Source of the DNA: a virus | Direction: 5' to 3' (one strand) | Length of the DNA stretch: 33,331 nucleotides | Virus record (IMG/VR): IMGVR_UViG_3300029787_000088 | Coordinates: 1-33,331 of that record | In this document: in pieces, positions 19,010-28,967 of the stretch | Layout: each line of letters begins with the position of its first letter | Position numbering within the stretch: the first letter of the stretch is position 1 | Made by a program: the position numbers and the translations under genes | The notes under the pieces: model-generated | What the model saw: only the letters and a program-made list of their open reading frames with translations | What the model was told of the DNA's origin: nothing | Databases searched by the model: none

Positions 19010-19176
19010 TGTGGTATCACCCCAAGTACTACAAAGAATTGAAAAAGATTCGGAAAGAGTTTGAGAGGCAACAAGCGGCAAGCGTCAAGCGCCAAGGTTC
19101 TCAAGATGAAGGAGGCAAGCATCAAGCTGCAAGCGGCAAGGTTCAAGCTTCAAGCCGCAAGCGTCAAGCTCCTTGA
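19009..19176 (+). CDS. 55-residue protein ending in heptamer-encoded tail
   Basis: The start overlaps the GP88-family stop by one base (TAATG). It opens MWYHPKYYKELKKIRKEFER and continues into a Gln/Ala/Ser/Lys tail ('QQAASVKR', 'HQAASGKVQASSRKRQAP') encoded by the CAAGCNN array. The first 20 residues look like a real helical protein; the tail is the in-frame reading of the repeat. Coupling and the sensible N-terminus support it. Function unknown. Confidence 0.5.
   Translation: MWYHPKYYKELKKIRKEFERQQAASVKRQGSQDEGGKHQAASGKVQASSRKRQAP
19072..19171 (+). repeat. CAAGCNN 7-bp tandem repeat array
   Basis: Four units at 19072-19099 (CAAGCGG, CAAGCGT, CAAGCGC, CAAGGTT), a 16-base interruption, then eight back-to-back units at 19116-19171. 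The first five bases are nearly fixed (two units have CAAGG); the last two vary. It overlaps the end of the 55-residue gene on the plus strand and of the nuclease gene on the minus strand. A 7-base unit read in triplets gives a 7-residue period. Confidence 0.85.
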
Positions 19177-19465
19177 TTACCTTCCCCTCATAAAGTTTTA
19201 CTTGGTTAAGGGAGAGGGCCTTAACCATAATAAATGTATTCTTCGGATGTACTAGATGAAATGAAAATTGATGTGGAGAAAAGCGAACTGAGTTTCCTCG
19301 TGTTACTTTTAATTCTATAGTGAAAAACTGGCCAAAACTATTATACCCCAGTATATCAGGAGTCCCCCATGCAGCGCTATTTTCCAAGCGTGTAAATGAT
19401 AATTTGCAATTATTTTTAGTAGCGAACGTTTTAATCTCATGCCAAAATTTTCTCTCTGGTTTCAC
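19085..19465 (-). CDS. PD-(D/E)XK nuclease, VRR-NUC-like, with repeat-encoded tail
   Basis: 126 residues, GTG start. 'KFWHEIKTFATKNN' (conserved Glu), 'ENSAAWGTPDILGYNS' (catalytic Asp), 'FFTIELKVTRG' (E-x-K) and 'FSPHQFSFHLV' (Gln after the lysine) give the full order of VRR-NUC / Holliday-resolvase-like nucleases, which cut branched DNA or DNA ends. The last 30 residues 'LDACGLKLEPCRLQLDACLL' are encoded by the CAAGCNN array read antisense, giving a Leu/Cys heptad pattern. It is convergent with the plus-strand genes. The tail is not part of the family's usual length. Confidence 0.72.
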   Translation of the reverse strand: MKPERKFWHEIKTFATKNNCKLSFTRLENSAAWGTPDILGYNSFGQFFTIELKVTRGNSVRFSPHQFSFHLVHPKNTFIMVKALSLNQVKLYEGKVIKELDACGLKLEPCRLQLDACLLHLENLGA

Positions 19466-19730: not shown

Positions 19731-20246
19731 ATGGGTTTACCAAAAAAATTAACAGAGCAGCAGATGAGATTTGCATACGAACTTGTTACCAACGAAGGTA
19801 GGAAGACAGCAACAGAGTGTGCTATCGATGCAGGTTTTAGTAAAGACTCGGCTAGACAATACGCAAGCAAGTTACAGAATCCAACCCTATACCCGCTCGT
19901 AGTACAATACATTGGAACTTTAAGAGAGGAGTGGCAAAAGAAATATGAAGTCACTTACGATAGACACATAGCAGAGCTTAGTAAGATTAGACAAGAAGCT
20001 CTTAAAAAGGGAGCGTGGTCAGCAGCTGTCAACGCTGAAGTTGCACGCGGAAAGGCTGCAGGTCTATATATTGAGCAGAAGATAATACGTACTGGTAAAC
20101 TAGAAGACTTAACAACAGAAGAACTAGAATCGCGAATGAAAAAAATAATCGACGACTACTCTCCGCTTCTAGAGGGAGTGTCTGAAGAAGAATTGAAAGA
20201 AAAAGTAAGACAAAAACCAGAATTGCTGAAAGATAAATCAAACTAA
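19731..20246 (+). CDS. terS: Terminase small subunit
   Basis: 171 residues. 'PKKLTEQQMRFAYELVTNEG', 'KTATECAIDAGFSKDSARQY' (helix-turn-helix) and 'ASKLQNPTLYPLVVQYIGTL' give the terminase_2 signature, followed by a helical oligomerisation region and 'AARGKAAGLYI'-like 'ARGKAAGLYIEQK'. It recognises phage DNA and feeds the large subunit. It sits on the opposite strand, 3.7 kb from terL, which is unusual. The stop overlaps the convergent 94-residue gene by 9 bases. Ribosome site weak. Confidence 0.82.
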   Translation: MGLPKKLTEQQMRFAYELVTNEGRKTATECAIDAGFSKDSARQYASKLQNPTLYPLVVQYIGTLREEWQKKYEVTYDRHIAELSKIRQEALKKGAWSAAVNAEVARGKAAGLYIEQKIIRTGKLEDLTTEELESRMKKIIDDYSPLLEGVSEEELKEKVRQKPELLKDKSN

Positions 20247-20522
20247 AACCTTTTCCATCTTGACAATACAGCCACGTGGAAAAACATTTCTATCGGAAAA
20301 CAACTCATCGTTCTCTTCAAACGTAGCGAAGGTCCAAATATTTTTTTTATTTTGATCAAACAAATAGGCGTGAGTTATCATAACTGATGGCTGTAGACCT
20401 AACGAGTCGTGAGCTGTCGCGTGCCCCGAATCACCCGTCGGATCAACCCACGTAATTTTATAGAAGTAATATCGTTTCTTCTTAATAACTATTGATTTAT
20501 ATTTTGATTTCTTGGCTACCAT
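20238..20522 (-). CDS. Conserved 94-residue protein, unknown function
   Basis: 'KRYYFYKITWVDPTGDSGHA' then 'LQPSVMITHAYLFDQNKKNI', 'WTFATFEENDELFSDRNVFP' and 'GCIVKMEKVL': a compact beta-rich domain with a basic start, frequent in marine phages. Its tail overlaps the terS tail. No ribosome site is evident. Function unknown. Confidence 0.7.
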   Translation of the reverse strand: MVAKKSKYKSIVIKKKRYYFYKITWVDPTGDSGHATAHDSLGLQPSVMITHAYLFDQNKKNIWTFATFEENDELFSDRNVFPRGCIVKMEKVLV

Positions 20523-20545
20523 AGTGTTTTTCTACAGGATTTTTG

Positions 20546-20566
20546 CTTTTTGCAAAAGGCAAAAAG
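20546..20566. other. 8-bp hairpin CTTTTTGC/GCAAAAAG
   Basis: Perfect 8-bp stem with 5-base loop AAAAG, upstream of the 94-residue gene and beside the TTGAGAC repeats. On the minus strand it could be a weak terminator for the nuclease operon; more likely part of the replication-like region. Confidence 0.4.
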
Positions 20567-20585
20567 AATCCTCTCGCGTTGGGTT

Positions 20586-20675
20586 TTGAGACATCTTGAG
20601 ACACTCTTGAGACATCTTTGAGGCAGTACTTTAACTAGCAATACCAACAGTTCTAGTCCATTGAGACATTGAGAC
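20586..20675 (+). repeat. Phased TTGAGAC repeats
   Basis: Copies at 20586, 20596, 20607, 20618 (TTGAGGC), 20661 and 20669. Steps of 10, 11, 11 and 43 (about four turns) put five copies on nearly the same helix face; the last is off phase. An A/T tract (20683-20710) adjoins. The 217-base gap has no convincing gene. Resembles iterons of a replication origin or a regulator array. Confidence 0.7.
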
Positions 20676-20739
20676 GGTATGTTTATCTTTTTTATTTTTA
20701 TTTTTTTAAAAAAGATTTGAAAATATACTATGGGACGCC

Positions 20740-21471
20740 TCAAAATGATGGGCATTCAAACTCCTCAGTGTTTCCAGGTTCCTGGGGCTTGGGCCTTGGT
20801 ACATGATATTGCCAGTAATCACTCACTTTTTGTAACCATATCTCACTTCTCGCCCTAAATTCGTCAGGATTTAGCCAAAATTCAGTCACATCTCCACCCA
20901 TCACGCTAACTAGAATCATTCCAGAACAGATCTTCGTTCCATACATATCGTTATGAGCCATCGCATACGCAGCCGCTTGGTTAAAATAATCTTCGCATTG
21001 TCTTTTAGTCTTCGGGTTGTTGCTTTGTTTAAAGTCTATAATACACTCTTGACCTTTGTAGACTCCCACAACATCAGCGGTCCCAGCGTACAATCCTTCA
21101 TAAGCTAACATTATCTCATTACCCCAGACCTCATTAAGATTTTTAAGAAAGCCATGGTCAATGATAGCCTGAGCCAAGAGGCCTGCTTCCTGACCTCTAG
21201 GAGTTAGATCAGCGTGACGTTCTCCAGTCATCTCACCTTCAAGAATCCTATGCATAATCGTACCACGTACAGCAGCATCGTTCTTAATCTTCTCAGCTTC
21301 TTCTTCACCTACTCGTTCTCTCCACCTAGCCAAAGCTATCGCTTTACCTTGGTCCGGAACTGCGGATAGGATGGTTGTAACAGAGGGTAATTTTTCTCCC
21401 CATCGGTATCGTCTTGTACCATCAACTTCAACTCTAGCTTTCTCAGGTGTTGTTATATATTTAAATTTCAT
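20740..21471 (-). CDS. RecB/Cas4-type PD-(D/E)XK exonuclease
   Basis: 243 residues. 'LPSVTTILSAVPDQGKAIAL' opens the domain, 'RGTIMHRILEGE' carries the RecB-type His74, 'YAGTADVVGVYKG' Asp133, 'ECIIDFKQSNNPK' D146-x-K148 and 'YFNQAAAYAMA' the Gln165 motif. The order is complete, so the enzyme should be active, probably a single-strand exonuclease for recombination, or for recycling host DNA. AAAGG lies 6 bases before the ATG, and its start overlaps the homing endonuclease stop (TAATG). Similar enzymes sit in the replication module of T7-like and marine phages. Confidence 0.78.
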   Translation of the reverse strand: MKFKYITTPEKARVEVDGTRRYRWGEKLPSVTTILSAVPDQGKAIALARWRERVGEEEAEKIKNDAAVRGTIMHRILEGEMTGERHADLTPRGQEAGLLAQAIIDHGFLKNLNEVWGNEIMLAYEGLYAGTADVVGVYKGQECIIDFKQSNNPKTKRQCEDYFNQAAAYAMAHNDMYGTKICSGMILVSVMGGDVTEFWLNPDEFRARSEIWLQKVSDYWQYHVPRPKPQEPGNTEEFECPSF

Positions 21472-23001: not shown

Positions 23002-23290
23002 ATACTATCCTTTCTGTAAAAAACTCACGGGCTTTCATCCGAACATATTCGTGATCAAAACCTGCGTACTGACATACTAATGCAAAATCTCGATTAGGTT
23101 CTAAAAAATATTCTCTTGCGGATTGTGTAAATAAATTATTTCTAGGACTGCCGTAACTTTTATTACGCCAGTGTCTACCTACTGCATCTTCCAATGCAAC
23201 AATTAAAACATTCCTCCACAAAGATCTTATTGGATCTTTTGTTTCCCCGAAATTAAGAGCTTTTGGAAATAGACTTTGTTGATTTGCCAT
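22976..23290 (-). CDS. Conserved 104-residue protein, unknown function
   Basis: 'DPIRSLWRNVLIVALEDAVG' then 'GSPRNNLFTQSAREYFLEPN' and 'FALVCQYAGFDHEYVRMKAR', a compact helical domain common in marine phages. The 'VCQYAGFDHEYVR' block resembles a helix-turn-helix and could bind DNA, though this is inference. It overlaps the regulator gene upstream by 38 bases. Confidence 0.7.
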   Translation of the reverse strand: MANQQSLFPKALNFGETKDPIRSLWRNVLIVALEDAVGRHWRNKSYGSPRNNLFTQSAREYFLEPNRDFALVCQYAGFDHEYVRMKAREFFTERIVYEKNMQRM

Positions 23291-23441
23291 TTAATTTCTT
23301 AACTTTCTCTTCAACTAACATTCTAATTACCTGAGCTCTAGATAGAGTGATCCCTGGTGCTAGAGTCTTGGCTAGCTTATCAATGTTGCCATAGCAAGTA
23401 TGATCTACTGCGAGGCTTTTGTATTTGCTTATGTCTGTCAT
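23253..23441 (-). CDS. Ribbon-helix-helix DNA-binding protein
   Basis: 62 residues. 'YKSLAVDHTCYGNIDKLAK' (strand and first helix), 'LSRAQVIRMLVEEKVKKL' (second helix after the 'S-R-x-x-V-I' turn) fit the Arc/MetJ fold, a dimeric repressor type; the Ser/Lys tail is disordered. AAAGGA precedes the start. Its own promoter has TATAGGAT next to the -10, the element found at other promoters, so it may regulate itself and the switch region. Confidence 0.62.
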   Translation of the reverse strand: MTDISKYKSLAVDHTCYGNIDKLAKTLAPGITLSRAQVIRMLVEEKVKKLNGKSTKSISKSS

Positions 23442-27032: not shown

Positions 27033-28967
27033 TCATTTTATTGAGCCCCAATTTGGGCCCGATTCATAGTCTACCTTATTAGGTATCTTTAAGTCAACTG
27101 CATTTTCCATAATGTCTTTTATCTTTGCAGCCTCTAAATCATTGGTCACTGATATATCAAGTTCATCATGTACTTGTATATGTGGTGTGATGCCCTCTTT
27201 CCATAAATCTAACATAGCTTTCTTTGTCATGTCGGCAGCACTACCTTGAATTAATTTATTTAATGCTTTGTATGTAAATGCTCTTCTCGCAGCATTGTTG
27301 TGCCAATAATTTTTCTTACCTGTGTCATTACCATTTTCGTCTAGGAGTGTTGGTCCCATTTGTTGTAACTCTAACATTCTCTCATGATCTTCTGCAGGTA
27401 CATATTTACCCCAGTCATCACCACGTAAGACAGGTTCATATTTTGGAAACCTACATCTTCTACCAAGTAAAGTTTTTATTTTACCTTTGCTAGATGCAGC
27501 GTTCATTAATTTATTCATCAACTGTTTTACAAATGGTACACGAGTATGATATCTTTCTGACAACGCAGAAGCTTTGTCTTTTGATACACCTAACTCTGCC
27601 TGTAGCTTTGCTTTACCCATTCCATAAAACAATCCTAGATTAATTACTTTAGCTTGACTACGTGGTATCTCTGCCATGTCTGCTACGATACGGTGAAAAT
27701 CTGTTTTAGGATTTGAGTCATAAGAATCTGCAATTTGATTTACAGAAGATAAACCAAATCTTAATGCATAGTGTGCAACAAGTCTTGGTTCCTGTTGCGA
27801 GTAATCAAAACATCCCCACTTCATACCTTCCTCAGGTATAAACAAACTTCTAATTAGTGGACCTGTATCTGGATCTCTTGCAGGTATTTGTTGTAGGTTT
27901 GGATTCTGATATGAAAATCTTCCGGTTACTGTACCACCGTCATCAGATCTTATTTGATTTATCTCCGCATGTATTCTACCACAATGCTCATGTTTTAATA
28001 TTGTATCTATAAAAGTTGTATTGACCTTGTTTATTTTTCTAGCCTGTGCTATTAATTGCACTGTAGGATGTGGATGATTAGAAAGGAAATTTTTTGTAAA
28101 TGAAGGTGACTCTGTTTTCTCGGTCTTATCGTAAGGTAAATTTAATTTATCGAAAACTTTTGCAATCGATCTTGCAGCCCATATTTGAGTGTCTACTCCT
28201 GTTTCTTTTTTCACTTGGTGTAGTAGCAATTCTTCTTTGGTGGTTAATTCTTTTTTTAATTGATTGGCTGCTTCAACGTCTACCCGCACCCCTAGGAAAC
28301 GCATATCAACCAAACAAGGAAAAAGATCTGTCTCAAGATTAAAAATATCTTGTATATCTTCTTCAACAATTAATTTTTTTACATGCTGCCAAAGTTCAAA
28401 AGTTAACTCTGCATCTTTTTCAGCGTAAGCTCCAACTTCACTTGCAGGCAACTGCCACATGTCAGCTTTTGCATCTAGTCCTCTTGACTTAGCTGCTTCA
28501 GTAAGTGACTTTTCATTTTTACCTTTGTTTAAAAAATGCCATGACAAAGTATTGAGTGTGTAAGAAAATCTATTCTCGTCTAGGAGTGAACATGCAACCA
28601 TTGTATCTACCACTAAACCATTGATATTTAAGCCTAATTTACGTATCCAACATACGTCGTACATAGCGTTATGAAAAATTTTTGTAGCTGGACAATTTAA
28701 AATATCTTTAAACCACTCTAAAGTTTTTTCTCGATTAGAGTTTGGACCTTCTGCGTGAGCTATAGGAAAATACCAACTACCGTGTTCAACAGCTACAGCT
28801 ATCCCAACAACTTCTCCACGTCCTACAACTGCACCTGACCCTAATGATTTTAAACCTGTATCTTTTGTTTCAAGGTCGATAGCTATTTCTTCATGCTCTC
28901 TTAAGTCTGGGTATTCTGTATGCATTACCCATTCTGTTTGAGCTTGCATGTAAGTTGGTAGCTTCAT
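27033..28967 (-). CDS. polA: DNA polymerase, family A, with 3'-5' exonuclease
   Basis: 644 residues. Exonuclease motifs: 'IAIDLETKD' (Asp31, Glu33), 'FHNAMYDVCWI' (Asn100, Asp104) and 'YAEKDAELTF' (Tyr181, Asp185). Polymerase motifs: A 'CFDYSQQEPRLVAHY' (Asp388, Glu393), B 'RSQAKVINLGLFYG' (Arg436, Lys440, Tyr448), C 'QVHDELDIS' (Asp601, Glu602). No 5'-3' nuclease domain. The residue matching E. coli Phe762 is Leu444. An extra stretch (about 515-555) lies between motifs B and C. AAAGGA precedes the start. The replicative polymerase. Confidence 0.95.
   Translation of the reverse strand: MKLPTYMQAQTEWVMHTEYPDLREHEEIAIDLETKDTGLKSLGSGAVVGRGEVVGIAVAVEHGSWYFPIAHAEGPNSNREKTLEWFKDILNCPATKIFHNAMYDVCWIRKLGLNINGLVVDTMVACSLLDENRFSYTLNTLSWHFLNKGKNEKSLTEAAKSRGLDAKADMWQLPASEVGAYAEKDAELTFELWQHVKKLIVEEDIQDIFNLETDLFPCLVDMRFLGVRVDVEAANQLKKELTTKEELLLHQVKKETGVDTQIWAARSIAKVFDKLNLPYDKTEKTESPSFTKNFLSNHPHPTVQLIAQARKINKVNTTFIDTILKHEHCGRIHAEINQIRSDDGGTVTGRFSYQNPNLQQIPARDPDTGPLIRSLFIPEEGMKWGCFDYSQQEPRLVAHYALRFGLSSVNQIADSYDSNPKTDFHRIVADMAEIPRSQAKVINLGLFYGMGKAKLQAELGVSKDKASALSERYHTRVPFVKQLMNKLMNAASSKGKIKTLLGRRCRFPKYEPVLRGDDWGKYVPAEDHERMLELQQMGPTLLDENGNDTGKKNYWHNNAARRAFTYKALNKLIQGSAADMTKKAMLDLWKEGITPHIQVHDELDISVTNDLEAAKIKDIMENAVDLKIPNKVDYESGPNWGSIK

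Follow-up and report, generated by a model that had tools for sequence, protein, structure and literature searches.

A helically phased repeat array with lineage-specific repeats around a conserved core in SAR11 phages: a candidate replication origin

A cluster of short direct repeats stands in the 217 bp that separate a Cas4/PD-(D/E)XK exonuclease gene from a 94-aa ORF in a virus contig of 47.8 kb that is syntenic with Pelagibacter phage HTVC027P. What is this array for, and which protein reads it? The window analysed here is a stretch of 33,331 nucleotides of that virus record. A first-pass annotation of the window had listed six TTGAGAC/TTGAGGC copies and read them as a candidate replication origin; all six were recovered exactly, each on the plus strand (Table 1). 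As a first correction to the annotation, the site is TGTCTCAA when read on the minus strand. Chance repeats were rejected, since six copies occur within 90 bp whereas no 95-bp span held more than three in 300 first-order Markov simulations of the window. When any 7-mer was allowed, the five exact copies of the array compared with at most three in 60 simulations. Nine copies of TTGAGAC are present in the 47.8-kb record as a whole, and five of these belong to the array; a second array was looked for in the record and not found. A coding function was also rejected: the 79-aa minus-strand ORF over the array (20516-20755) had no family match, and the spacings between sites in relatives differ by non-multiples of three. 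Rfam and tRNA searches gave no matches, and the inverted copies of some lineages speak against recognition of the repeats at the RNA level.

Table 1. Coordinates of the array, its surroundings and the proteins discussed (positions in the window)
Feature	Position	Strand	Remarks
Proximal repeat R6	20586..20592	+	TTGAGAC; minus-strand reading TGTCTCAA
Proximal repeat R5	20596..20602	+	TTGAGAC
Proximal repeat R4	20607..20613	+	TTGAGAC
Proximal repeat R3	20618..20624	+	TTGAGGC
Distal repeat R2	20661..20667	+	TTGAGAC
Distal repeat R1	20669..20675	+	TTGAGAC
Conserved spacer core	20633..20659	-	Minus strand GGACTAGAACTGTTGGTATTGCTAGTT; from alignment; single copy in record
A/T tract, candidate DNA-unwinding element	20683..20710	.	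27/28 A/T
Conserved element CCCAACGCGAGAG	20571..20583	-	After proximal sites
Long terminator-like hairpin GGATTTTTGCTTTTTGCAAAAGGCAAAAAGAATCC	20537..20571		
Terminase small subunit TerS	19731..20246	+	Terminase_2 / Bacillus phage SF6 TerS-like DNA-binding domain
94-aa ORF of unknown function	20238..20522	-	Adjoins array on R6 side
PD-(D/E)XK / Cas4-like exonuclease	20740..21471	-	Adjoins array on R1 side
HTH104, 104-aa protein, predicted C-terminal helix-turn-helix	22976..23290	-	Candidate repeat reader (inferred)

The 36-bp spacer between the two clusters of repeats (20625-20660) holds a conserved core, which was absent from the first-pass annotation. Within the core, an IHF-like sequence TACCAACAGTTCT at 20642-20654 agrees with the consensus at 7 of 9 positions as counted by eye. 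The A/T tract had been described correctly. The flanking hairpin is present, too, but it is not the 8-bp structure that had been reported; its arms are 13 nt long (20540-20552 and 20553-20565), 92% complementary and joined without a loop. A stem-loop with compensatory changes around the core was not convincing (best z of 3.2 among 168 stems tried). The array had been taken for the place where transcription units meet, but it sits between two co-directional minus-strand genes, and the convergence with the plus-strand island lies at 20238-20246 (TerS against the 94-aa ORF), ca. 0.3 kb from the array.

Two further features of the window were recorded. Upstream of TerS, at 19072-19170 and partly within a 126-aa ORF (19085-19465), lies another family of repeats, whose unit is 7 bp long (GCTTGAN/GGCTTGC) and which has a higher period of 21 bp. 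This family was seen in nearly all relatives (L041, L106, L357, L358, L361, L363 and many more), and GCTCGCT takes its place upstream of TerS in the 023Pt relatives. PolA (27033-28967, minus strand) gave a good match, below the cut-off, to the aminoadenine-type polymerase family DpoZ (NF038380).

Relatives were collected through the exonuclease for close ones and then by three scans with TerS queries, the scans yielding 139 non-redundant loci with a classed array. In the close relatives, the array was kept at the same place, and HTVC027P carries different sites (TGTTACA, TGTGACA, TGCTACA and TGTTTCA) at the equivalent place with equal spacing. In ca. 140 related loci, two distal sites are followed by the conserved spacer core and then by proximal sites, usually three or four, at steps of 10-11 bp; in the alignment, the order A/T-rich tract, R1 R2, spacer with core AAGTGTTGRTATTA, R3-R6, CCC-N-CGCG and T-rich hairpin is constant, and similar terminator-like hairpins were found in the relatives. 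The sequence of the repeat itself is lineage-specific, being TGTCTCA in the window and TGTTACA, TGTGACT, TGAGACA, TGGCACA, TGGAACA, GGTTACA, TACTACC and others elsewhere. At least 11 classes of site sequence were distinguished, and every copy of one array changes together, inverted copies included. Slippage hardly accounts for spaced and inverted copies that change in concert, and the pattern points to a sequence-specific protein. The earlier concern that the repeats might be unconserved in near relatives falls away, because layout and position are kept while the repeat sequence turns over.

An A/T-rich tract beside R1 recurs in most lineages, the A/T content of the best 30 bp beside the first site having a median of 0.87 as against 0.77 in controls; classes E and F are without a strong A/T tract beside the first called site. 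Some loci have the array 2-3 kb away from TerS, or at a distance of more than 1 kb from the exonuclease gene, and it is therefore tied to neither by simple adjacency. An array was looked for in Phage DSL-LC04, and none was found. The region between TerS and the exonuclease gene is a recombination boundary in the relatives, as seen in L178 and L180, whose TerS proteins are 96% identical and whose exonucleases are 45% identical. At 200-800 bp beyond TerS, the density of true contig ends is several times higher. Four TerS-bearing virus contigs (L356-L359) were placed in bins of unrelated organisms (a Planctomycetaceae, a Flavobacterium and a Borrarchaeum) and are probably binning contaminants.

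The helical phasing and the iteron-like plan proposed by the first-pass annotation were borne out, both by the 10-11 bp steps between proximal sites and by the gaps between the distal and proximal clusters. These gaps gather near 42-46, 50-55, 62-65 and 73-76 bp, close to 4, 5, 6 and 7 turns, and show a periodicity of R = 0.60 at a period of 10.5 bp (P = 0.0008) with one vote for each distinct gap, some of the 50-51 values being R1-to-R3 distances. Since the gaps lie near whole helical turns, both clusters seem to be held on one face of the helix. Of 106 unique spacers, 28 contained the full IHF consensus TATCAAN4TTA (9/9), where shuffling gave a mean of 1.0; these 28 are mostly of one class and so not independent. 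The remaining spacers, including that of the window, carry a near-match, which is imperfect in the window. Proteins of the HU/IHF family are encoded in single-cell genomes of SAR11 in which related virus contigs occur.

When the core alone was used as a query and its surroundings were inspected for repeats, it turned up in more distant phages as well, with still different repeats around it. Four loci (L384, L420, L436 and L454) carry it with ACACCA repeats and have a distant TerS nearby, and in two others (L388 and L401) a relative of HTH104 is encoded 0.7 kb away. In L392, the core and repeats stand beside a primase/helicase gene and that of a 140-aa protein with a DnaA C-terminal-like domain (Bac_DnaA_C, E = 2e-5, below the cut-off of Pfam), and in L432 they stand among the SSB, YqaJ exonuclease and Erf genes. 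The array plan thus lies inside replication/recombination modules in two unrelated phages. Some 20 core matches without repeats equal the chance expectation, and annotated phages and plasmids gave only short, weak matches to the core. In Fusobacterium phage phiKSUM (L478, 2500-2680), a non-coding stretch with GGGTATA repeats contains two core-like sequences, AAAAGTATTGCTATTATTGAATAA and AAAAGTATTGATATTATTA, separated by ca. 135 bp.

To judge which protein reads the repeats, we asked whether near-identical proteins coexist with different repeats. TerS was rejected as the sequence reader, as the 96% identical proteins of L178 and L180 go with different repeats and residues 1-68 are near-identical across phages with TACTACC, TGGAACA and TGTTACA repeats. 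TerL (identity of 0.96), the helicase (0.98), PrimPol (1.00) and the RecT-like protein (0.99) were rejected as sole readers on the same ground, and so was a ribbon-helix-helix (RHH)-like protein of 62 aa (0.96). These comparisons make each of TerS, TerL, helicase and primase unlikely as the sole reader. The 62-aa protein (23253-23441, minus strand) resembles a ribbon-helix-helix regulator; there is almost no variation in its strand (SKYKS[LV]A), whereas the neighbours vary. For the exonuclease, no class difference was found above an identity of 0.83; for HTH104, none was found in 57 pairs at an identity of 0.8 or more, the highest discordant pair being at 0.73. The exonuclease and HTH104 are the only candidate readers that survived this pair test. 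However, HTH104 evolves fast, so that its high-identity pairs are few and come from close relatives, and the test leaves it standing without proving it to be the reader.

Mantel correlations with motif distance agreed with the pair test but were modest, being r = 0.37 for the exonuclease, 0.30 for HTH104 and 0.28 for both the helicase and the RecT-like protein; TerL (-0.03) and GP88 (0.04) were uncorrelated. Parsimony counts of motif changes on gene trees (7 for the exonuclease; 8 for TerS, HTH104, helicase and PrimPol) were not discriminating, and the noise of a sliding-window correlation for a specificity helix was too high. The structural model of HTH104 has helices at residues 52-63, 67-76 and 80-103 (pLDDT of 75), and its fold matches in the PDB were weak and homeodomain-like (Foldseek E > 2, VIA Z of 4.2 or less). 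A relationship of HTH104 to DnaA domain IV was rejected (profile comparison probability below 1%), and homology of the candidate readers to a known initiator was looked for and not found. Taken together, the conserved layout, the phasing, the concerted turnover of the repeats and the presence of the core in unrelated phages indicate a phased array that a lineage-specific protein reads.

We consider the site to be the probable docking place of a virus-specific DNA-binding protein and most likely the start of DNA copying. An iteron-type replication origin is the reading that fits the array best, with a probability of roughly 0.5, since a phased split array, a core resembling the target of a bending protein and an A/T tract together reproduce the plan published for iteron origins, namely phased iterons, an A+T-rich region and IHF (PMC5043065). 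We infer the following course, from the identity of the binding protein to initiation itself. A phage DNA-binding protein, for which HTH104 is the best candidate, would bind the TGTCTCAA sites on one helix face, and IHF/HU, as the bending protein of the host, or a similar factor would bind the core and bring the clusters together. The nucleoprotein complex would then strain the adjacent A/T tract until the strands open, and the primase, helicase and PolA of the phage would load there. Short helix-phased direct repeats with an adjacent A/T-rich region are shared with the origins of phage lambda (ori) and of plasmids pSC101, R6K (gamma) and P1 (oriR), and so is the replicon-specific sequence of the repeats; those origins use IHF or another bending protein, for which the core is a candidate target here. 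Unlike those origins, whose sites measure ca. 17-22 bp, the pelagiphage array has sites of 7-8 bp, is split into clusters of two and of three or four sites around one conserved core, lacks a recognisable Rep/O initiator, and is a candidate origin only. Part of what the first-pass annotation had adduced for an origin stands (phasing, A/T tract and iteron plan); its transcriptional meeting point does not, and no GC3-skew switch was seen at the array in HTVC027P, 023Pt_psg01 or the record of the window, which is no help to a bidirectional origin. Other observations, too, speak against an origin: phages that differ in their repeats can share helicase, PrimPol and RecT-like proteins at 94-100% identity, and the array is usually 0.3-1 kb from TerS, a typical place for a packaging (pac) site. 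The near-equal parsimony counts, the weak A/T tract of classes E and F and the imperfect IHF match of the window count against it as well.

In a pac site, a ring of SF6/SPP1-type TerS would wrap the repeats of both phased clusters, with the IHF-bent core between them, and TerL would make the first headful cut nearby. This alternative, the main rival if a doubtful one, keeps real weight because TerS is near, is of SF6 type, and repeats turn over in SF6/SPP1 without a change of TerS. The distance to TerS is 0.34 kb in the window and at most ca. 2-3 kb in the other TerS-bearing loci examined; the protein gave a match to the DNA-binding domain of SF6 TerS (4zc3, E = 2e-4), and TerL has a psiM2 C-terminal domain (TIGR01630). 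The direct repeats of SPP1/SF6 pac also differ while TerS is exchangeable, and SF6-type TerS may not need repeats matched to its specificity (PMC4737164). As in the pacL-pacC-pacR arrangement of SPP1/SF6, two groups of direct repeats that differ between relatives flank a middle element near an SF6-type TerS gene. Unlike that pac, however, the pelagiphage site is outside the TerS gene, has many repeat classes that change in concert, and recurs in replication modules of unrelated phages where this TerS family was not detected nearby. The repeats are plainly read, yet near-identical TerS residues 1-68 go with different ones, which makes the TerS helix-turn-helix (HTH) an unlikely reader, and TerL does not follow the motif either. 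Contig ends are commoner close to the site, but they scatter around it and do not fall on one base; recombination explains this enrichment equally. Repeats also stand on both sides of an IHF-like element in lambda cosB (R3-I1-R2-R1) and P1 pac (repeat cluster, IHF, repeat cluster). Unlike in those systems, no cohesive-end site or single cut point was seen, contig ends did not pile up at one base as at a lambda-type cos, the repeats are not Dam sites, and the TerS HTH does not follow them.

An operator at which a phage regulator such as HTH104 binds the repeats and controls transcription leaving the early operon would suit the terminator-like hairpin beyond the proximal sites, with its counterparts in relatives, and the survival of a DNA-binding-like protein in the pair test. 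We hold it unlikely, as only the 94-aa ORF lies just downstream and the plus-strand TerS transcript heads towards the site, so that no important promoter suggests itself as the target. Nor would an operator need as many as six phased sites with a conserved core among them, or their occurrence in unrelated phages. Reading by a host protein, with a specificity that varies by host strain and a phage motif that follows the host, would account for the finding that phages with different motifs can have near-identical versions of most conserved genes. This is very improbable, given that at least 11 motif classes would demand a fast-changing host DNA-binding protein and that the exonuclease and HTH104 do follow the motif; we know of no such fast-changing protein in SAR11.

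If the array is an origin, a broader proposal may be put forward tentatively: a portable phage origin cassette, in which exchangeable lineage-specific iterons around a conserved core are read by an undescribed family of small initiators, might be common to SAR11 phages and unrelated phages, and rapid change of the repeats would create replication-specificity groups. Such groups, if real, would be comparable to plasmid incompatibility groups. Our literature search found no origin, packaging-site, virion-end or binding data for this abundant pelagiphage group. The array belongs to a virus of the commonest bacteria of the ocean, and its layout is kept while each lineage swaps all repeats together. 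At least 11 repeat classes, swapped by nature around a constant core, offer ready material for identifying the protein that reads them and for studying concerted change in protein-DNA specificity. The array could also reveal whether there are replication (or packaging) compatibility groups among phages.
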